From positions 62,001 to 126,000 of the forward strand of contig JAFGCO010000069.1 in assembly GCA_016932575.1 (NCBI GenBank): 64,000 nucleotides of DNA, in the 5' to 3' direction. This DNA comes from a bacterium. Its GTDB lineage: Bacteria > Zhuqueibacterota > QNDG01 > JAFGCO01. Shown here piece by piece: positions 35,974 to 64,000 of the stretch (the first letter of the stretch is position 1; each line of letters opens with the position of its first letter). Under the pieces are notes generated by a model. It was not told the origin of the DNA and did no database searches. It saw only the letters and a program-made list of their open reading frames with translations. The position numbers and the translations under genes are program-made.

Positions 35974-36900
35974 ATGTTTGTAGGACAGAGTCCACATAGC
36001 ATGAAAATTAAAAAACTAATCCGTGAAGTGGCAAAGACCAACGACAACTCTCTACTGACTGGAGAAGTTGGTTCAGGCAAGCAACATGCAGCCCGCGAAA
36101 TCCACAATCGCAGCAAACAGAAAAATCGTCCGTTTGTGGTACTCAACTGTACGGCAGTGGGCGATACCATTACTGAAACAGACATTCTTGGTCATGTTTC
36201 TGAGGGGAATCTGGGGGTAGAGCGTAAAATTGGCATTTTAGAACAGGCACATAAGGGTATTTTATATCTTGAAAATGTTCAGGATTTACCCCCCGGGTTT
36301 CAGCAAAAATTGTTCAATATCATCACGGAAGGCCGGTTTCAGAAACCCGGAGAAAAAAAATTTATACAGGTAACCTTGCGAATTTTTTCCGCTACAACCG
36401 ATCTTGAACTCAGCAAACGCGAATCATTTCGTAAAGACCTGCTTTCTCTGCTCAATCCCTTTGTGATTCCCATCCCGAAGCTTTCCGAACGCAAGCAGGA
36501 CATCCCTTTACTGTTTACTCATTTCCTCGAGCAATATTGCCAGGAGTATGATAAGGAGCTTCCCGCTGTACCAGCCGAGCTGTTTGAATCTATGATGGAA
36601 TATCACTGGCGGGGGAACGTTCAGGAATTAAAAAATGCGATTCGTAATCTCGTGTTAATGTCGCCGGAAGGCAGTTTGTCTGTAGAATTTCTGCCGTTTG
36701 AAGTGAAGCATCATCCCTATGAAAATTTGGTTGGCAAAGAACTTCCGGACGCCATCAGCGAAGTGGAAGGTTATCTGATCAAACGTGCATTGTCCAGATT
36801 CGCCGGCAACCAGACCAAAGCTGCACATGCACTCAATGTATCTGAAGCCGCGCTGCGCTATAAGATGAAAAAATACGGCCTCACCCGCAAAGCCTTTTAA
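35974..36900 (+). CDS. NtrC-like AAA+/Fis regulator lacking the GAFTGA loop
   Basis: A 308-residue protein of the bacterial enhancer-binding type without a receiver or sensor domain: an AAA+ domain (1-230) directly followed by a Fis-type helix-turn-helix at the C-terminus (NQTKAAHALNVSEAALRYKM). Key residues are altered. Walker A reads GEVGSGKQ (30-37) instead of GESGTGKE. The sigma-54 contact loop reads GHVSEGNLG (73-81) where GAFTGA should be. Walker B reads ILYLEN (96-101) instead of LFLDE. Of the arginine fingers, FRKDL is kept but the second is Leu (SLLN). It therefore probably binds DNA but does not activate sigma-54 in the usual way. The ribosome site GGAGG precedes the ATG. It is likely paired with the membrane protein upstream. 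Confidence 0.85.
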   Translation: MFVGQSPHSMKIKKLIREVAKTNDNSLLTGEVGSGKQHAAREIHNRSKQKNRPFVVLNCTAVGDTITETDILGHVSEGNLGVERKIGILEQAHKGILYLENVQDLPPGFQQKLFNIITEGRFQKPGEKKFIQVTLRIFSATTDLELSKRESFRKDLLSLLNPFVIPIPKLSERKQDIPLLFTHFLEQYCQEYDKELPAVPAELFESMMEYHWRGNVQELKNAIRNLVLMSPEGSLSVEFLPFEVKHHPYENLVGKELPDAISEVEGYLIKRALSRFAGNQTKAAHALNVSEAALRYKMKKYGLTRKAF

Positions 36901-52470: not shown

Positions 52471-55086
52471 CTAAATATTTTTAATCCTAAAATCAAGTGA
52501 ATTTTCATTAACTTCCAGTATTACCCTGTCATTAGATCTAATGTCTCCTTTCAATATAGCATTGGCCAGAGGATTGGTTAGCAGTCGTTGCAAAGTACGT
52601 TTTAACGGACGGGCACCAAATGCTGGATCATACCCGGATCGTGCAAGAAACTGCCGTGCTTCCTGTGTCAATTTCAAATCGATTCCCTGGGATTCGGCTT
52701 TTTTGCGAATGGTACGGAACTGTAGATTCACAATCTGTTCAATCTCTGATAAATTCAGGGGATGAAAGACCACAATCTCATCGATTCGATTAAGAAATTC
52801 AGGTGGTAAAGTCTGTTTAAGCATCAAATCCACTTCTTTCTTGATAGATTCATAGACCGCCTGATGGTTGGCCTCGCCGACAGACTTGGATTTTTCCATA
52901 ATCATTGAAGCGCCTATATTGGACGTCATGATGACAATGGTATTTTTAAAATTAACAACCCGCCCCTGGTTGTCTGTCAGTCGTCCGTCATCCAGTACTT
53001 GAAGAAGCACATTAAATATGTCAGGGTGGGCTTTTTCAATCTCATCCAGAAGGATCACCGAGTATGGACGACGGCGTACTGCTTCAGTGAGCTGCCCCCC
53101 TTCATCATATCCGACATAACCAGGAGGTGCACCAATTAGACGAGACACCGAGTGCCTTTCCATGTATTCCGACATATCAATTCGTACCATAGCGTGTTCA
53201 TCATCAAAAAGAAATTCTGCCAGCGCCCGGGCCAGCTCGGTCTTGCCAACACCTGTGGTACCAAGAAAAATAAATGAACCGATCGGCCGTCTTTCTTCCT
53301 GAAGGCCTGCCCTGGCTCTCCGAATTGCATCCGAGACTGCAATGACTGCTTCATCCTGGCCGACCACTCTTTGCTTCAGGCGCTCTTCCATATGGAGTAG
53401 TTTTTCCCGTTCACCTTCCATCATACGTGATACGGGAATGCCAGTCCATTTGGCAACGACCTCGGCAATATCCTCTTCATCCACCTCTTCTTTCAACATC
53501 TGCTTGTCTTTTTGCAAACTGACAAGTTGCTGATTGGCTTCGCTAAGTTTTTTTTCCAGATCGGGCAGTGTCCCGTATTTAAGTTCGGCTGCTCTGGAGA
53601 GCTCACCGTCACGTTCTGCCTGACTCGATTCTGATTTCACCTGCTCGATCGATTCTTTCAAAGAACGGATCTGAGCAATCTTCTCTTTTTCCATTTGCCA
53701 TTGGGCACGTAAGGATTTTGCATCTTCCTCCAAATTGGCCAGTTGTTCACCAATACCCTTCAACCGTTCCTTTGAAGCAATGTCTTTCTCTTTCTTCACA
53801 GCTTCCCGCTCAATGGTCAACTGTTTTATTTTACGCTCAATCTCATCCAGTTCGGCCGGCATTGAATCAATTTCAATACGTAGCTTGGAGGCGGCTTCAT
53901 CAACCAAATCAATGGCCTTATCCGGTAGAAATCGGTCACTGATGTAACGGTGGCTTAACGTGGCCGCTGCTACCAGCGCATTGTCCTGTATACGGACGCC
54001 ATGATGTACCTCATATCGCTCTTTCAATCCCCGCAAGATAGAAATCGTGTCTTCCACCGAGGGTTCGCTGATTAAAACCGGTTGAAACCGTCGTTCCAGG
54101 GCGGCATCCTTTTCAATGTGTTTGCGATATTCATCCAATGTGGTAGCACCAACACATCGTAACTCTCCCCTGGCCAGGGCCGGTTTCAACATATTCGACG
54201 CATTTACAGCACCCTCAGCAGATCCGGCACCAACGAGCGTATGTAATTCATCAATGAAAAGAATGATCTGCCCATCGGACTCCTGGATTTCTTTCAGCAC
54301 TGCTTTCATACGATCCTCAAATTCTCCACGGAATTTGGCTCCGGCCACGAGGGCCCCCAGATCCAGCGCTATGATTGATTTGGTTTTCAAGGTGTCCGGG
54401 ACATCTCCAGCCACAATACGATGGGCAAGACCTTCAGCAATGGCTGTTTTTCCCACACCCGGTTCTCCGATTAAAACCGGATTGTTTTTGGTGCGTCGTG
54501 ATAACACCTGAAGAACCCGACGGATTTCTTCTTCACGTCCGATCACTGGATCCAGTTTGTTTTGACGCGCCAGATCATTTAAATCCCTCCCATATCGCTT
54601 TAATGCCTGATACTTTTGTTCAGGATTGGGATCTGTCACTCTCTGGCTGCCCCGTAATTCTTTGAGAATCTGAAGAAGTTTGTCATGGGTTGCTCCGGAT
54701 TTCCGAAGCAAATCACCGGTTGGACATGTGGATTCTGACAAAGCCAGCAGGAGATGCTCCACACTGATGTATTCATCCTTAAGCTGGCGGGAAGACTGAT
54801 GGGCCCGTTCCAGTACCTGATTGGCGGCCTGAGAAAGATAAATCTGCCCCACACCTCCACTCACTTTTGGAAATCGTTTGATCAATTCGTCCAGTTGTAG
54901 CTTAACAGGACCGGTCGGAATATCCAGTTTTTTAAACGCAGACAGCGTCAGGCCCTCGGGATCCTGTAAAAGTGCATTCAGCAAATGCTCAGGTTCGATT
55001 TGCTGCTGCCCGTATTCACTTGTCATCTGCTGTGCCAGCTGGATCGCCTGTTGCACTTTAACGGTCATTTGATCAGGTGAAATCAT
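52471..55086 (-). CDS. clpB: Disaggregase ClpB
   Basis: A full-length hexameric AAA+ disaggregase of 871 residues that works with DnaK to rescue aggregated proteins. In order: an N-terminal Clp domain ([19 protein letters not shown]), AAA1 with Walker [16 protein letters not shown], the long coiled-coil middle domain (about 400-525, [17 protein letters not shown]) that is diagnostic for ClpB, AAA2 with [16 protein letters not shown] and the pore loop [11 protein letters not shown], and a C-terminal D2-small domain. The genes upstream (dnaK, hsp20) lie on the same strand with spacers under 30 bases, so it belongs to the chaperone operon. Confidence 0.97.
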
Positions 55087-55365: not shown

Positions 55366-55731
55366 TTACACCACCTCAATCGGGATTTCGCGAGGCTTTA
55401 ATTGTTCATACCTCGGCAATTTTAAAATTAAAACACCGTCTTCCAATTTGGCAGTAATCTTGGTTGCATCGACATCATCGCTCATTTTGAAAACACGGTA
55501 ATAATTACCCGGCTCAATCTCCCGATGCACAAATGCATCCGGATTCACCGATTCATCGGTCACTCGCCCATATAAAATCAATTCACCATCAGCGAATTTG
55601 ACGTCAAGGTTCGATTTTTTAACGCCTGGCATATGTGCTTTCAGTACATACTCTTCTCCGGTATCAAAAATATTGACCGCCGGAGGAACCAAATTTCCGG
55701 CTTCCCACTCTTTTTCAATATCTGCCGTCAT
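55366..55731 (-). CDS. Small heat shock protein, Hsp20 family (second copy)
   Basis: A 121-residue alpha-crystallin-domain chaperone that holds unfolding proteins for DnaK/ClpB. The domain shows VNIFDTGEEYVLKAHMPGVKKSNLDV, then LILYGRV, and the C-terminal strand AKLEDGVLILKLPR with an I-P-I motif (PREIPIEVV). AAGGAG precedes the ATG. It is 9 bases after dnaK and shorter than the other Hsp20, with a reduced N-terminal arm. Confidence 0.93.
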   Translation of the reverse strand: MTADIEKEWEAGNLVPPAVNIFDTGEEYVLKAHMPGVKKSNLDVKFADGELILYGRVTDESVNPDAFVHREIEPGNYYRVFKMSDDVDATKITAKLEDGVLILKLPRYEQLKPREIPIEVV

Positions 55732-55740
55732 GGCCGCTCC

Positions 55741-57657
<1,917 letters not shown>

Positions 57658-57680
57658 AATCATTATCCTCCTTATGTCAA

Positions 57681-57950
57681 TTATTTTTTCGCTTCTGTCG
57701 GTTTTTGTGTTGAACTTTCCTTCTTCGGATCCGCCTTTTCAGGTTTGGCCGAATCAACAGCATTACTTTTTCTTTTATAATCTGTGATATAAAATCCGCT
57801 TCCCTTAAAAATCAAACCGGCACCCGATCCAATCTTTCGTTTGACTTTTCCCCGGCACTTTGGACATTTTTTCAGCGGCTCTTCCGTAATATTCTGAAAC
57901 GCTTCAAATTCATATCCGCATACTTTGCACACATAATCATAGGTTGGCAT
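57681..57950 (-). CDS. FmdB-family zinc ribbon protein
   Basis: An 89-residue protein. The N-terminal zinc ribbon has two CxxC pairs ([14 protein letters not shown] and [16 protein letters not shown]), typical of the FmdB/CxxC_CXXC_SSSS putative regulatory family. The C-terminal half is Lys/Ser/Pro-rich and unstructured. It is placed between dnaJ and dnaK with spacers of 23-30 bases. Its role is unknown; the position suggests a stress-linked regulator or a small redox/zinc sensor. Confidence 0.88.
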
Positions 57951-57980: not shown

Positions 57981-59054
57981 CTATACTGCCTGTTTTTGTT
58001 TATTCACCACCTGCACAGTCACCAGTTGATCTCCGCGTTTTCCCGGTTTGCCTATACCCATATTCGGAATTCGCAAGGTGGTACCGCTGTTTGTTCCCGG
58101 CGGGATTTTCAAACGGACTTTATTTCCATGAACGGTCTTGACCTGAATCGTTGTACCTTCAGCCGCCTGACCTGGATTAATCTCTACGATGCAATGAACG
58201 TTGCGTCCCCGCGGCTGGAAAAACCTGTGAGATTTAATCTGAACAGTCACGTACATATTACCCGGTGGTAATCCCGAGGGATCTTTCTCCCCCTGCCCTT
58301 TTAACCGGATTTGCTCTTGCTCTGTGATGCCTGCCGGAATATTGATTGTATAATTTTTTTTCACTTTGGCTGTACCTGATCCCTGGCATCGGCGACAGGG
58401 ATTTTCGATAATGTGACCCTTTCCATAACAATGGGGACAAACCTTTTGCGAAGCGCCAAGAAACGGGGATCCACTTGAAATTCTTCCCCGGCCCTGACAC
58501 TTCGGGCATGTCTTGACCGTCGATCCAGGTCTGGCACCACCGCCCTCACATATCGGGCATGTATCTTCTTTTTGAACTAAAAATGAGGCCTTGCCTCCTT
58601 GAACCGCCTTTTCCAGAGGTATGGTCAATTTGACATGGATATCATGTCCGCGCACAGGTCGCGGGCGTGCTTTCTGAAAAGGACTGGCTCCTTTAAATAA
58701 ATGGTCAAAAATACTCCCCAAATCACCCATAAAATCAAAACCTTCAAAGGAAAATCCCCCCGGTCCTTCAGATGTCCCTGCACGATGAAAGGAGCCAAAA
58801 TCATAATTCCTGCCATGAAAACCACCACCACGGAATCCATACTTACGCATCTGATCATATTCAGATTTTTTCTTGGGATCACTCAGCACATTGTATGCTT
58901 CCGAAATAGCCTTAAATTTTTCCTCGGCTTTTTTATCTCCGGGATTGGTGTCCGGATGATATTGTTTGGCCAGCATTCGATAAGCTGATTTAATATCAGA
59001 AGCTGAAGCTTTTTCTCCAACACCCAAAATTTTATAATAATCTTTGATATCCAT
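57981..59054 (-). CDS. dnaJ: Co-chaperone DnaJ (Hsp40)
   Basis: A 357-residue class A J-protein. The J domain has the essential HPD at 33-35 (AKQYHPDTNPGD). A Gly/Phe-rich linker (GFRGGGFHGRNYDFGSFH) is followed by the zinc domain with four CxxCxGxG-type repeats (CPICEGGG, CPKCQGRG, CPHCYGKG, CRRCQGSG) and the C-terminal client-binding domains. Its ATG overlaps the grpE stop by one base (TAATG). It stimulates DnaK, encoded downstream. Confidence 0.97.
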   Translation of the reverse strand: MDIKDYYKILGVGEKASASDIKSAYRMLAKQYHPDTNPGDKKAEEKFKAISEAYNVLSDPKKKSEYDQMRKYGFRGGGFHGRNYDFGSFHRAGTSEGPGGFSFEGFDFMGDLGSIFDHLFKGASPFQKARPRPVRGHDIHVKLTIPLEKAVQGGKASFLVQKEDTCPICEGGGARPGSTVKTCPKCQGRGRISSGSPFLGASQKVCPHCYGKGHIIENPCRRCQGSGTAKVKKNYTINIPAGITEQEQIRLKGQGEKDPSGLPPGNMYVTVQIKSHRFFQPRGRNVHCIVEINPGQAAEGTTIQVKTVHGNKVRLKIPPGTNSGTTLRIPNMGIGKPGKRGDQLVTVQVVNKQKQAV

Positions 59055-59587
59055 TAATCAGACTCTTCCATCGCTTTCAGTTTGGCGACTTTTACACGGC
59101 TTGGCCTCAACAGGCTGCCATGAAATTGATATCCTTTTTGCCATTCTTCTAAAACGACGCCGTCCTTCTTAGGTTCTTCCACTTCTTCAACAGCGATCGC
59201 TTCATGAATGTCCGGATTAAAGGTTTGATCCAATGCATCAATGGATTCCAGCCCTTCATCAAATAGAATCTTTTTCAATTTTTGAATAATAAGCTGAATT
59301 GCTTCTATCGGACACTGATGATCTTCTTCATGATGCTTTACCAGGAGATCCAGATCATCCAAGATGGGCAGTAACTGAGCAATAAAATTCCCTTTGATAA
59401 AAGTCGAAAGCGATTCTTTTTCTTTCTCTGTTCTTCGTCTGTAATTAGCAAACTCAGCCTGAAGTCGTTGAAGCTGTTCAACATATATTTCCTTCGGCTC
59501 CTTTTCATCGGATCGATCTGCACTTTGTTCGCTTTCTCCCCCCTCTATAGGGATTGAAATATACTTATTATCTTTTTTTGCTTCCAT
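59054..59587 (-). CDS. grpE: Nucleotide exchange factor GrpE
   Basis: A 177-residue DnaK nucleotide exchange factor. The long N-terminal helix (QLQRLQAEFANYRRRTEKEK) is followed by LPILDDLDLLVKHHEE and the C-terminal beta wing with NPDIHEAIAVEEVEEP and VLEEWQKGYQFHGSLLRPSRVKVAK in pieces. All are family hallmarks. The ATG at 59587 is taken, with a GTG three codons upstream also possible. It is directly coupled to dnaJ. Confidence 0.95.
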   Translation of the reverse strand: MEAKKDNKYISIPIEGGESEQSADRSDEKEPKEIYVEQLQRLQAEFANYRRRTEKEKESLSTFIKGNFIAQLLPILDDLDLLVKHHEEDHQCPIEAIQLIIQKLKKILFDEGLESIDALDQTFNPDIHEAIAVEEVEEPKKDGVVLEEWQKGYQFHGSLLRPSRVKVAKLKAMEESD

Positions 59588-59649
59588 AAAAATCACTTTA
59601 CCTTATTTAACACCAATCCTTGATTAAAATTATATTTTCCATCAAACGG

Positions 59650-59674
59650 AAAAATCCCATCAAGTGGGATTTTT
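59650..59674 (-). terminator. Hairpin between hsp20 and grpE
   Basis: AAAAATCCCA-N5-TGGGATTTTT forms a perfect 10-bp stem ending in T on either strand. It lies about 30-50 bases past the first hsp20 stop and 60 bases before grpE. It may be a partial terminator that lets hsp20 be made in excess over the DnaK system, or an RNA processing site. Confidence 0.65.
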
Positions 59675-59702
59675 CTAAAAACCAACCATTTTAAATGCCC
59701 GG

Positions 59703-60146
59703 TTACTGAACCGAAATATCTATTTGTTTTGGTTTGGCTTCCTCTGCCTTGGGCAGTGTAATTGTCAAAATACCATCTTTATAAGCTGCTTTAACCTTGT
59801 CTCCCTTCACTGCTGTGGGTAAGACAAAAGACCTTTGAAATTTTCCATAACACCGTTCCAGTCGGTGATAGCATTTCCCTTTATCTACGGTCTCCTGCTT
59901 CTTGTCACCCTCCAGGCTGAGCACATTATCCTGTAAAGCAATTTTTACATCTTCTTTCTGAAGACCCGGCAACTCGGCAACCACCACGATCTCATTGTCA
60001 CTCTCGGAAATATCCACCATTGGACTCCAGACAGTGGAAGGTTCAACATTTTCGGATCCCCTTACATAAAAATCATCAAAAAGGCGGTTCATTTCAGATT
60101 GGATATTAACCAGGTCCCTTAAAGGATTGAATCTTACAAGTGTCAT
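59703..60146 (-). CDS. Small heat shock protein, Hsp20 family (first copy)
   Basis: A 147-residue alpha-crystallin-domain chaperone. The N-terminal arm is MTLVRFNPLRDLVNIQSEMN with RLFDDF. The crystallin domain follows (VDISESDNEIVVVAELPGLQKEDVKI in pieces, LSLEGDKKQE, GKCYHRLERCYGKFQRSF, YKDGILTITLPKAEE), and the C-terminal strand ends PKQIDISVQ. The ATG at 60146 has GGAGGG 7 bases upstream; ATGs at 60152 and 60161 are too close to it. It is the first gene after the sigma-54 promoter at 60193-60208. Confidence 0.94.
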   Translation of the reverse strand: MTLVRFNPLRDLVNIQSEMNRLFDDFYVRGSENVEPSTVWSPMVDISESDNEIVVVAELPGLQKEDVKIALQDNVLSLEGDKKQETVDKGKCYHRLERCYGKFQRSFVLPTAVKGDKVKAAYKDGILTITLPKAEEAKPKQIDISVQ

Positions 60147-60192
60147 GGCCATACCCTCCATATTTTTTAAATTTCATTTCGTTTTTTAATTA

Positions 60193-60208
60193 TGCAAGAG
60201 GTGTGCCA
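60193..60208 (-). promoter_or_regulatory. Sigma-54 promoter of the heat-shock operon
   Basis: On the minus strand the sequence is TGGCAC-ACCTC-TTGCA, an exact match to the sigma-54 consensus (TGGCAC-N5-TTGCW) with GG and GC ten bases apart. Transcription would start near 60182, leaving a leader of about 36 bases before the hsp20 ATG. Genes under such promoters need an enhancer-binding AAA+ activator. Confidence 0.82.
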
Positions 60209-60275
60209 CATTGAATATTGATGTGTATATCCAGTTTAAACAATAGGTTATCATAATTCAAAAGTACTCAGCACA

Positions 60276-60311
60276 ATAGCGCCGATTTGGCGCTATATTT
60301 GCCAATTTGAC
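60276..60311. promoter_or_regulatory. Tandem palindromic activator sites upstream of hsp20
   Basis: Two copies of GCC[A/G]ATTTG[G/A]C lie at 60281-60291 and 60301-60311, exactly 20 bp apart, about two helical turns. The first is embedded in a perfect 8-bp inverted repeat ATAGCGCC-N5-GGCGCTAT (60276-60296). They are 70-100 bp upstream of the sigma-54 promoter, the usual location of activator sites. Confidence 0.65.
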
Positions 60312-60343
60312 ACCTAACTGAGATTCTCAAGCCATGATGGCAT

Positions 60344-60376
60344 AAAAAAGGACAGATTTTAATCTGTCCTTTTTTT
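60344..60376 (-). terminator. Terminator of the HtrA gene
   Basis: A perfect 11-bp stem AAGGACAGATT / AATCTGTCCTT with a 2-base loop, flanked by A-run and T-run, so it can work in both directions. It lies about 75 bases past the HtrA stop. Confidence 0.88.
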
Positions 60377-60448
60377 ATAAGATAGAATGCTGTGTTGTTT
60401 AAAGATATTATTACATTTAAACAGAGATTATACCCCGACTTCATTCAA

Positions 60449-61966
60449 TTATTCAGGAAGCTTCACAAATGCATGCACTTCCCTGGACTGTCGTTTCAAA
60501 TAAAAAATCACGACTTGTCCCTTTTTAAATTCTTTTAAAGCCTGACGATAATCCGAAATATTTTTAATCGGAATATCTTCGATTTTAAAAATCAGATCAC
60601 CCCGGATGATTCTGCCTTCCTCTGCTGCACTGTACCGTTCGACATTGGTTACCAGAATCCCTTCTTCATCTTCATATTCTTCGTAACGCGAACGAATTTC
60701 ATCCGTAAGATTCTTTACTTGCAAACCCAGCTTGGGTAAATCCTCATCCTCCGAATGAGTCACACTCTCTTTTCCCATATCTTTCTGGCCGAGGGTGACT
60801 TTGATCTGTTTTGTTTTCTTATCGCGAATAATGGTTAAGACCACTACATCATCCGGATTTTTCAGAGCGATGGTGTTTTGAACCTGATTGGGAGCGTCCA
60901 TAGGCTGTCCGTCGACTTTCAATAATATATCCAATGGTTTAAGACCCGCTTTATCAGCCGGGCTGTCTTCCATCACCTGATCGATCAAAACACCGGTGGG
61001 ACGTTCCAATCCATACCGCTGGGCAATTGCCTCAGTGACAGGATACATACCAATTCCCAGGTAAGCACGGGTAACATAACCCTGTTTTACAAGGTCGTTC
61101 ATAACTTTCTTCGCGAGATTAATGGGGACAGCAAATCCATATCCCTGATATCCGCCGGTTTTTGTGGCGATCGCTGTATTAATACCCACCACTTCTCCAC
61201 GCAAGTTCACTAATGCACCCCCGCTGTTCCCGGGATTTATGGCCGCATCGGTTTGGATGAAATTTTCTATGGCAAATGATCCGCCTTCGCGGCCGGCCTC
61301 GTCATCGCCGATAATATCGATTTTACGGCTCTTGGCGCTGACAATGCCGGCTGTAACGGTTGATGTCAGATTCAGCGGATTGCCGACAGCCAGTACCCAC
61401 TCTCCAATATCCAGCTGGTCTGAATCTCCTAAAAGTGCAGCAGGTACATCGTCCCCGTCAATTTTGATTACGGCAATCTCGGTGAGTGGATCCGTACCTA
61501 CCAGCTTGGCATCAAAAGACCGCTTGTCATAAAGCCTGACTTTCATATCTTCCGCATCCTGAACCACATGATTATTCGTCAGAATATATCCGTCCTTACT
61601 GACAATGACTCCAGATCCTAATCCTTGCAGCCGTTGTTCCTGTTGAGGTATTTCACGGCCGAAAAAATCCCTGAAAAACGGGCTGAAAAAGTCGTCCGAC
61701 GATTGTTTTACGACTTTTGATGTGGATATACTGACTACAGTCGGCAGAATTGCCTGAGAGACCTTGGTAAACGCTTTGGCGGTCTTATCCAAATCAAAAT
61801 CAGTATCAACAGGCTCATAGGAAGCCTCTGAAGATATGTGCGATATTGATTTCGGATTTTCTGAAGGCAGCATCCACCCCAATTGCGTGGATATAACAAG
61901 ACCAATCAAAGCACCGATAATAATCAGTCCGCCTACCGAAATCCATTTAAATCGTGATACAGACAT
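60449..61966 (-). CDS. HtrA/Deg-family periplasmic serine protease
   Basis: A 505-residue envelope protease-chaperone. An N-terminal membrane anchor (WISVGGLIIIGALIGLVIS) is followed by a trypsin-like domain with His133 (LTNNHVV) and Ser248 (NPGNSGGAL). Two PDZ domains follow (about 290-380 and 410-500; GLERPTGVLIDQVMEDSPADKAG in pieces, DLIFKIEDIPIKNIS). The residue at the usual catalytic Asp position is Glu163 (DPLTEIAVIKI), which is unusual. AGGAGG lies 6 bases before the ATG. It follows the zinc peptidase by 24 bases and precedes the heat-shock operon, with a terminator between. Confidence 0.92.
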   Translation of the reverse strand: MSVSRFKWISVGGLIIIGALIGLVISTQLGWMLPSENPKSISHISSEASYEPVDTDFDLDKTAKAFTKVSQAILPTVVSISTSKVVKQSSDDFFSPFFRDFFGREIPQQEQRLQGLGSGVIVSKDGYILTNNHVVQDAEDMKVRLYDKRSFDAKLVGTDPLTEIAVIKIDGDDVPAALLGDSDQLDIGEWVLAVGNPLNLTSTVTAGIVSAKSRKIDIIGDDEAGREGGSFAIENFIQTDAAINPGNSGGALVNLRGEVVGINTAIATKTGGYQGYGFAVPINLAKKVMNDLVKQGYVTRAYLGIGMYPVTEAIAQRYGLERPTGVLIDQVMEDSPADKAGLKPLDILLKVDGQPMDAPNQVQNTIALKNPDDVVVLTIIRDKKTKQIKVTLGQKDMGKESVTHSEDEDLPKLGLQVKNLTDEIRSRYEEYEDEEGILVTNVERYSAAEEGRIIRGDLIFKIEDIPIKNISDYRQALKEFKKGQVVIFYLKRQSREVHAFVKLPE

Positions 61967-61990
61967 AATTTTCCTCCTGACACTTTAATA

Positions 61991-62677
61991 TTAATCACGA
62001 GCATTACGCAAAACCAATAACCGAATGAGCTGCAGAACGGCAACAGCTGTTGCAGCCACATAGGTCAAGGCAGCTGCATATAAGACTTTTCTGGCGTCCT
62101 TGACTTCCATCTCTGCTAAATAACCGCGATTTTTTAATACTGCCAGTGCACGGCCGCTTGCGTTGAATTCGACCGGCAACGTGACCAGCTGAAATAACAC
62201 GGCTCCGCTGAAAAATATGATTCCGATATCCAGAAGCGTGGGAACCGACATAATTAATCCGATGAGAATAAGGGGAAAAGCCATTTTTGATCCAAGGCCG
62301 ACAGCGGGGGCAATCGCCTGACGAATCTGAAATGGCTGATAAGCTTCCTGATGCTGTACAGCGTGCCCGACTTCATGAGCGGCCACTCCCAACGCGGCCA
62401 CGGACCGGCTTCTGGCCACTCCCGAAGAAAGACGGAGCACTTTGGATCTCGGATCGTAATGATCAGACAGATTTCCATTGATCTCTTCAACTTCAACCCC
62501 AGATAATCCGTGATCCTGCAACAATCGCTTTGACAGTTCAGCGCCCGTCATCCCGGAGCCGGCTTTGACTTTACTGTACTTATTAAACGTGCTCTTTACT
62601 TTAAATTGAGCCCATAGGGATAAAATAATTGCGGGAATCAGAAACAGGAGGGTCGGATCGTAAAATAAATAGGGCAT
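61991..62677 (-). CDS. Membrane zinc metallopeptidase (YugP family)
   Basis: A 228-residue membrane protein with the zinc site HEVGH at 101-105, followed by AVQHQ, typical of the Zn_peptidase_2/YugP family. Membrane segments: LLFLIPAIILSLWAQF at the N-terminus, AFPLILIGLIMSVPTLLDIGIIFFSG in the middle, and LTYVAATAVAVLQLIRLLVL at the end. The ATG at 62677 has GGAG 6 bases upstream; a TTG four codons earlier is the longest frame. It is probably co-transcribed with the HtrA gene 24 bases downstream, so it likely takes part in membrane protein quality control. Confidence 0.9.
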   Translation of the reverse strand: MPYLFYDPTLLFLIPAIILSLWAQFKVKSTFNKYSKVKAGSGMTGAELSKRLLQDHGLSGVEVEEINGNLSDHYDPRSKVLRLSSGVARSRSVAALGVAAHEVGHAVQHQEAYQPFQIRQAIAPAVGLGSKMAFPLILIGLIMSVPTLLDIGIIFFSGAVLFQLVTLPVEFNASGRALAVLKNRGYLAEMEVKDARKVLYAAALTYVAATAVAVLQLIRLLVLRNARD

Positions 62678-62946
62678 CGTTTTCTCCAAAATTAATTTCT
62701 GACCAATAAATTCACCTTGTAATACGAAATTTATAAAACTCAGGTTCCTAAATTCTCATTGAACCCGAAACTTCCATCTCCATCAATATCGGACGGGCAA
62801 GAAAAGAAAAAAGTTTTAACCTGAATTATTTGTCATACAGGAATTGACAGTGCAGAATTAATCATTCGCTTCCATATTTGAAAACGAATCATTTGTATCA
62901 ATCAGGAATACAGGACATTAGATGGCTCAAGAACAAGTAAGTCACA

Positions 62947-63510
62947 CTAAAAATGAAGGGCGATGTTCACACCGTTCAAAGTACTGCTGACTTTGACTTT
63001 TCCGATTGGCACCTTGATTTCCATAGGCCGGATGGCGATATAAAGGGAGCCAACGCTCAAAATACTTGAAACAATGCCGGCTGCCATCGCATTCTTCTGA
63101 TCTTTTGTATTGATGGTTTCAGGATCAACCTGTGCTTCCTTACGTTCTTTTTCGGCTTTTTTATGAAGGCGATCATACTCCTGAAACCGGTTGATTGCAT
63201 AGGCTCCAGACGCAATACTTAATACTGCAAAAGGTAGAAATGGCCGGCGAACTTCAGTGTAATAGCGTTCTCCAGTAATAAGATCTATCACTTGGTTATC
63301 CCGATAAATTCGAGCAATATTTTTTTGAAAAACAGCGATTGTACTTCCCTGTTCTGTTTTCATAACAAAGGCTTTGCCCCCTTTGGTATCTTGAACTTTT
63401 ACAATCTTCCCGCGGTATTTTACTCCTTTTCGGGTTTCAAGAATATCCAAAGCCAAGGCATTCGAAACAACAATTAATAGTAAAAAACATCCAGCCCACT
63501 TGTATTTCAT
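62947..63510 (-). CDS. Secreted protein of unknown function
   Basis: A 187-residue exported protein. The signal peptide (WAGCFLLLIVVSNALAL) is followed by a beta-rich region (RKGVKYRGKIVKVQDTKGGKAFV, GSTIAVFQKNIARIYRDNQ) that resembles small SH3- or Sm-like barrels. A hydrophobic segment (FLPFAVLSIASGAYAI), a Lys/Glu-rich helix (EYDRLHKKAEKERKEAQ), a second hydrophobic segment and a final beta hairpin ending IALHF come after. The terminal Phe would suit an outer-membrane location. No family is recognised. Confidence 0.72.
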   Translation of the reverse strand: MKYKWAGCFLLLIVVSNALALDILETRKGVKYRGKIVKVQDTKGGKAFVMKTEQGSTIAVFQKNIARIYRDNQVIDLITGERYYTEVRRPFLPFAVLSIASGAYAINRFQEYDRLHKKAEKERKEAQVDPETINTKDQKNAMAAGIVSSILSVGSLYIAIRPMEIKVPIGKVKVSSTLNGVNIALHF

Positions 63511-63842
63511 TCAAATATTCCTCTTATGCTCGGTTTCATGGAGTATAACAGATAAATGTAAATTTCAAAAGCCGGTTTTAATGATTGATTAAAAAATCAT
63601 CAAATACTCCCGTTTCTGTTCTCTGACAAGATGCAAATTGAAATGAACATCGCTTTCTGATCAAGACCGATGAATAGATTGCATAAAATATGCCAAAACA
63701 GCAAACTGGCACTGCCGAAATGAAAAAGAACAGTTTTAACCGATTTTATCTGAAGCAGAAAATCGTGTTTTACATTGTTTATTTTCTGTCTTTCAAGAAA
63801 TAAATGGCATTATCGATAAATTATAATCTTCTGATTAGCAAC
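63511..63842. other. Intergenic region with possible sigma-54-like site
   Basis: A 332-base AT-rich spacer. On the minus strand TGGCAT-ATTTT-ATGCA (63695-63680) has GG and GC ten bases apart and could drive the gene starting at 63510, but it deviates from consensus in two core positions and the leader would be about 160 bases. Nothing else is recognised. Confidence 0.35.
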
Positions 63843-64000
63843 CTAACGCATCCTTAAAAGCAGTATTGAAATACGCCGATTCAAATAACGGCCCACCGGT
63901 GTCGTGTTATCTCCCAATTTAACCTGTCCGTAATTTTTCAGTTTTACAATCAGGGGTTGACTTTCACCATATCCTACAGGTGTTTCGATTCGGCGGCGCA
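63843..64000 (-). CDS. OmpA-domain protein, C-terminal fragment (partial)
   Basis: Only the last 51 codons are in the window. The translation contains RIETPVGYGESQPLIVK and DNTTPVGRYLNRRISILLL, ending LRMR. The patterns GYGESQP and N-TP-GR--NRR-I are the closing signature of OmpA/MotB-type peptidoglycan-binding domains, which anchor the outer membrane to the cell wall. An insert (LKNYGQVKLG) between them is longer than usual. The TAG stop is at 63843-63845; the start lies beyond the right edge. Confidence 0.8.
   Translation of the reverse strand, partial: RRRIETPVGYGESQPLIVKLKNYGQVKLGDNTTPVGRYLNRRISILLLRMR

Follow-up and report, generated by a model that had tools for sequence, protein, structure and literature searches.

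Does an enhancer-dependent sigma-54 promoter control only a small heat-shock gene at this locus, or does it also reach the DnaK chaperone genes encoded behind it? Bacterial heat-shock control is, in textbook terms, a matter of sigma-32 or of repressors such as HrcA. The locus resembles E. coli ibpB, a small heat-shock gene that also has a sigma-54 promoter, and it is unlike E. coli as regards dnaK and grpE, which are sigma-32 genes in that bacterium. We addressed this question in a 64-kb window (the whole stretch of 64,000 nucleotides analyzed here), in the 4.4-Mb genome to which it belongs, in a sample of 12 genomes of the order and in Hsp20 loci of other phyla.

An exact sigma-54 box upstream of hsp20

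The initial annotation reported an exact TGGCAC-N5-TTGCA match located 47-62 bases before the hsp20 ATG. Both the match (60208-60193, minus strand) and its distance proved right when counted from the start at 60146 (Table 1), which is backed by a GGAGGG Shine-Dalgarno sequence and by the starts of orthologues (MTLV...). The element TGGCACACCTCTTGCA has the -24 GG and the -12 GC of a sigma-54 promoter 10 bp apart in TTGGCAC-N5-TTGCW, and it is the best hit in the window of a weighted sigma-54 scan (19.5/20). When both strands of the genome are searched, TGGCAC-N5-TTGCW occurs eight times versus twice for the reversed pattern. Two of these eight exact boxes have the enhancer repeats described below and both are hsp20 promoters, the second belonging to the hsp20 gene at C30:65174, while the remaining six boxes have no such repeats. 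A sigma-70 type promoter had been named as the alternative to check, and the sequence upstream of hsp20 yielded no sigma-70-like site. The presence of rpoN is implied by the enhancer-binding proteins (EBPs) and promoters of the genome. Note that a weaker sigma-54-like box, TTGGCATATTTTATGCAA, is located at window position 63696 (minus strand), ~190 bp upstream of an ORF starting at 63510.

Table 1. Features of the chaperone locus (window positions) and the leading candidate activator gene (genome contig).
Feature	Position	Strand	Remarks
clpB	52471..55086	-	TIGR03346
Second hsp20-like gene	55366..55731	-	PF00011
dnaK	55741..57663	-	TIGR02350; sole dnaK found in genome
FmdB-type zinc-ribbon ORF	57681..57950	-	PF09723; conserved between dnaJ and dnaK
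dnaJ	57981..59054	-	PF00226, PF00684, PF01556
grpE	59054..59596	-	PF01025
Hairpin GAAAAATCCCA-CTTGA-TGGGATTTTTC in hsp20-grpE gap	59649..59675	-	Possible attenuator or terminator
hsp20 (small heat-shock protein)	59703..60146	-	PF00011, E 2e-26; open frame reaches 60161
Shine-Dalgarno GGAGGG	60154..60159	-	From sequence; 7 nt 5' of ATG 60146
sigma-54 -24/-12 element TGGCACACCTCTTGCA	60193..60208	-	Exact match; conserved before hsp20/grpE in order
-12 GC of sigma-54 box	60195-60194	-	
Proximal enhancer site CGCCAAATCGGCG	60280..60292	.	At -82; inverted repeat related to TGYCANNNTGRCA
Middle enhancer site TGTCAAATTGGCA	60300..60312	.	At -102
Distal enhancer site TGCCATCATGGCT	60330..60342	.	At -132; overlooked in initial annotation
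Terminator after degP/htrA-type gene	60344-60376		
degP/htrA-type protease gene, upstream	60449..61966	-	TIGR02037; syntenic in relatives
lptE-linked EBP, 382 aa	G000:C24:28200-29348		AAA+ and Fis HTH, no sensory domain; putative lptE adjoins

Three phased inverted repeats upstream of the box

Two GCCRATTTGRC elements had been described at a spacing of exactly 20 bp, and they are indeed present as GCCGATTTGGC (60281-60291) and GCCAATTTGAC (60301-60311), with a third copy, GCCATGATGGC (60331-60341), 30 bp farther out. All three copies form the core of 13-bp inverted repeats with the pattern TGYCA-N3-TGRCA, hereafter termed the UAS. The order along the minus strand is the degP terminator, TGCCATCATGGCT, TGTCAAATTGGCA, CGCCAAATCGGCG, an AT-rich stretch and TGGCACACCTCTTGCA, with the site positions in Table 1 counted from the -24 box. 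Thus, the region ~80-200 bp upstream, where activator sites would be expected, holds three TGYCANNNTGRCA-type sites that are both conserved and phased.

We analyzed the repeats across 21 promoters, which were picked partly for having a box and come from related genomes, such that the following counts overstate independence. Exact UAS sites number 25 in 17 of these promoters, as compared with 0.14 in dinucleotide shuffles, and at no more than one mismatch there are 50 sites present in all 21 promoters versus 2.9 in shuffles. The best period over all sites is 10.1 bp with R = 0.74, a value that exceeds the 99.9% null of 0.42 and that was reached by none of 2000 random sets. Among the order genomes, this period analysis puts the sites on one helical face, and in most of these genomes the repeats are at -82/-83, -102/-103 and -132/-133. 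The helical phasing behind the earlier proposal of a dimeric or oligomeric activator on one face of the DNA is therefore borne out by computation, and such a protein would bind these sites. Repressors often use short inverted repeats in front of chaperone genes, and these repeats might instead be the target of a classical repressor or of a nucleoid protein. We regard this as quite improbable given that the sites, at ~70-145 bp upstream, keep helical register with the box and stay clear of it, which is an enhancer-like arrangement.

The arrangement is conserved in the order and beyond

In all 12 order genomes the best-matching Hsp20 gene is preceded by a sigma-54 box scoring at least 18/20, located within ~75 bp of the start, together with upstream UAS repeats. 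When no best copy is chosen, a box of at least 17 is found at 19 of the 30 Hsp20 loci fetched, and the loci below this score are mostly divergent copies or inner operon genes.

We also scored 80 named Hsp20 loci from other phyla for a box of at least 17, where the count expected per group is 0.02-0.28. All eight Calditrichota loci have a box before hsp20 (0.12 expected) and five of these eight have a box plus repeat. The same is true of the box at 3/3 loci from Latescibacterota/Zixibacteria/Poribacteria. Nine of 12 Verrucomicrobial loci also have one in a variant form with nAGCTA at -12, although its assignment as a sigma-54 box is less certain. A box was found at 3/19 loci labelled Ignavibacteria or Bacteroidetes, at 0/17 Acidobacteria Hsp20 loci and at 1/20 of all other Hsp20 loci. 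Judged from these upstream regions, Calditrichota, Latescibacterota and Zixibacteria have the module before hsp20 in common, and Acidobacteria lack it. The proposed check on conservation of the motif and its paired sites thus came out in favor of the promoter, with box and phased repeats before hsp20 in 12/12 genomes of the order as well as in a number of other phyla. This recurrence indicates that the arrangement, as predicted from sequence, is a real, conserved and little-described mode of chaperone switching. A chance motif devoid of function has nothing more than the AT-rich sequence to recommend it and is refuted by a conservation within the order and other phyla that is far above shuffles, leaving it a negligible probability.

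In regards to the Verrucomicrobial variant, the hsp20 genes L073, L081, L085, L089, L103, L106 and L112 have in common TTGGCAT-N5-nAGCTA ~100-145 bp upstream, which may be a form of the sigma-54 box in which the -12 element is changed. Repeat-like sites near -130 also occur at several of the Verrucomicrobial hsp20 genes.

Link to the DnaK operon

The gene order after hsp20 is grpE, dnaJ, an FmdB-type ORF, dnaK, a second hsp20-like gene and clpB. A single full dnaK match was obtained in each genome where the gene was found, and the operon behind hsp20 is probably the only DnaK (Hsp70) operon of the cell. Nearly all of the order genomes read have an FmdB-type ORF separating dnaJ from dnaK.

The earlier description of the promoter as being ahead of a chaperone operon holds for gene order, but an 11-bp hairpin separates hsp20 from grpE in the 106-bp gap of the window. 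Indeed, a stable hairpin fills this gap in all three genomes where hsp20 comes first, so that read-through into grpE is likely partial. The hairpin may attenuate the operon, and partial read-through would favor an excess of Hsp20 over DnaK. It might also terminate the majority of transcripts, and grpE may possess a promoter of its own. Taken further, these 3/3 gap hairpins would fit a promoter that is real but serves hsp20 alone, with the hairpin acting as a terminator and grpE-dnaJ-dnaK being transcribed from an unrelated promoter of their own. We consider this possible but doubtful, as a sigma-54 box of the same kind lies directly before grpE in G004, G005, G006 and G007, and as a second sigma-54 box is absent from the gap in the three genomes that share the window's gene order (G000, which is the window's own genome, G001 and G011).

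More specifically, among nine sole-dnaK operons with a readable upstream region, seven have a strong box, directly before grpE in four cases and before hsp20-grpE in three, and two have weaker boxes (G008, G009). In G006, a metalloprotease gene and degP are followed by the box with repeats at -129/-100/-80 and then by grpE, dnaJ, fmdB and dnaK with no hsp20 between; the G005 arrangement was inferred by joining a pair of contigs that have the box sequence in common at their ends. The box thus directly precedes grpE/dnaJ/dnaK in relatives, whereas the window has hsp20 in between, and the presence of the module directly before grpE-dnaJ-dnaK in relatives indicates a genuine connection with the DnaK operon. 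We therefore conclude that an enhancer-dependent sigma-54 promoter very probably drives hsp20 and, at least in part, grpE-dnaJ-fmdB-dnaK. Both the sole DnaK operon and the principal Hsp20 genes of this bacterium thus appear to rely on sigma-54 together with an ATP-driven activator.

What the module responds to is a separate matter. Many characterized EBPs are sensors of nutrients or envelope stress, and the module might answer a signal such as nitrogen, envelope or redox state with Hsp20/DnaK as one output among others. We think this rather unlikely because every UAS-bearing promoter detected in the order precedes either hsp20 or grpE-dnaJ-dnaK. This restriction suggests a proteostasis signal and would fit induction by protein-folding stress.

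CIRCE lies at groESL, the probable target of HrcA

The statement that neither CIRCE nor hrcA is present holds for the window, including the hsp20 and grpE upstream regions where no CIRCE was found, but not for the genome. The genome has hrcA at C6:61695 and, at up to three mismatches, a sole CIRCE (C22:87314) located at groES-groEL. Both hrcA and CIRCE-pattern matches are found in 9/12 order genomes. The eight CIRCE loci that were read, with 0-1 mismatch, all precede groES, and none of the CIRCE loci read has a sigma-54 box of at least 18 upstream of groES. The location of CIRCE at groES and the lack of a strong sigma-54 box there suggest that this lineage splits control, with HrcA appearing to govern groESL and sigma-54 appearing to govern Hsp20 and DnaK. 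As in HrcA/CIRCE systems, both components are thus present in the genome and order, with the difference that CIRCE is at groESL and not at the window's hsp20 or grpE. Note that a second grpE and dnaJ follow hrcA (L279, G000:C6 ~60200-63850), giving two co-chaperone sets for the one dnaK found.

Relation to known systems

Sigma-54 control of chaperones is already known in kind from Flavobacterium psychrophilum, as described in the passages of PMC9723704 drawn on here, where sigma-54 promoters with mapped 5' ends precede groESL, lon, dnaK, grpE-dnaJ, htpG and clpB, and where three EBPs are reported with none assigned to chaperone promoters. Our locus is like this system in having grpE-dnaJ and dnaK behind -24/-12 promoters, and unlike it in that groESL is under CIRCE without sigma-54 and that hsp20 heads the operon. 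A 2025 computational survey, in the passages used, also reports that chaperones are enriched among the genes predicted to be under sigma-54 in Bacteroidota and Planctomycetota (PMC12316311). The phased 13-bp UAS defined here is not mentioned in these passages of PMC9723704 and PMC12316311.

A search of the accessible literature, a body that excludes most subscription papers, returned no description of the enhancer, of its phasing or of comparable regulation in this lineage, which by protein similarity would be an uncultured one of FCB type. Two features are thus apparently undescribed, namely the conserved phased enhancer and the split between HrcA (groESL) and sigma-54 (Hsp20/DnaK). The suggestion of a regulon not described for this lineage is to that extent supported, but the principle is known in Flavobacterium (PMC9723704).

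A proposed mechanism and candidate activators

We propose that sigma-54 RNA polymerase would occupy the -24/-12 box in a closed state, while a dimeric Fis-type AAA+ activator would bind the 13-bp repeats at -82, -102 and -132 on one face of the helix. An activator oligomer formed on the repeats could then touch the polymerase by DNA looping, with a stress signal leading to ATP hydrolysis and promoter opening. The hairpin after hsp20 would probably make Hsp20 more abundant than GrpE/DnaJ/DnaK, and groESL would be under separate HrcA/CIRCE control. The GTCA-N3-TGAC of the UAS fits the GT-N7-AC spacing of NorR-type enhancers, and the Fis-type HTH is alike, although the target genes differ.

The conserved enhancer sequence is a direct handle for finding the activator, a question that Flavobacteria pose as well. 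The genome codes for ~20 EBPs (20 strong PF00158 proteins), most with GAFTGA, and for four of these, reciprocal best hits were obtained in five or more relatives. Next to the EBP genes fetched, no UAS pair was detected. Our working hypothesis is that an lptE-linked, PspF-like EBP, the leading candidate, is the activator. This protein has GAFTGA or GSFTGA in the order and Calditrichota, and its recognition helix, [GS]ERTLYRK[LI]KEYGL, is almost invariant across phyla, which fits a conserved DNA target. As regards co-occurrence, this EBP is present in 12/15 non-Verrucomicrobial genomes having the box and full-length in 0/14 box-less genomes outside FCB, but its distribution follows FCB phylogeny. 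Specifically, it is also present in 4/4 FCB genomes that lack the box, so that phylogeny confounds the co-occurrence. No chaperone genes were found next to the lptE-linked EBP, with groESL absent there in the seven genomes read, and no enhancer pair was found beside it. We advance only tentatively an ancient FCB-type circuit, shared by this order, Calditrichota, Latescibacterota and Zixibacteria, in which the sensor-less lptE-linked EBP would be the dedicated activator that reads TGYCA-N3-TGRCA. This EBP would switch on Hsp20 and the sole DnaK system, perhaps once it is freed from a chaperone or some other inhibitor, with HrcA keeping only groESL.

Several other EBPs were considered. L019 (G000:C57) was suspected initially given that a relative with 47% identity adjoins hsp20 in a Caldithrix contig (L077), and it was set aside as clear orthologues are missing in the UAS-bearing genomes G005, G006 and G010. 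The conserved EBP L010 was also rejected, since in G005 it is located close to a gene for glutamine synthetase, as is one of the four EBPs with reciprocal best hits, and may thus serve nitrogen control. L013, conserved between a putative lpxK gene and nadB, may still be a candidate. A UAS pair at G000:C24:32325 was discounted as it is without a sigma-54 box and may be chance, the reversed pattern being similar in count. The window itself codes for a 308-aa EBP-like protein (35974-36900, plus strand) with AAA+ and Fis-type HTH domains, which should not activate sigma-54 because SEGNLG replaces the GAFTGA loop; it has no reciprocal orthologue among the relatives fetched. Finally, the gene for the NtrC-type EBP L014 (relatives L209, L221 and L249) has a conserved position next to hflX, which other bacteria have as a heat-shock gene, and its product may represent a second candidate activator.
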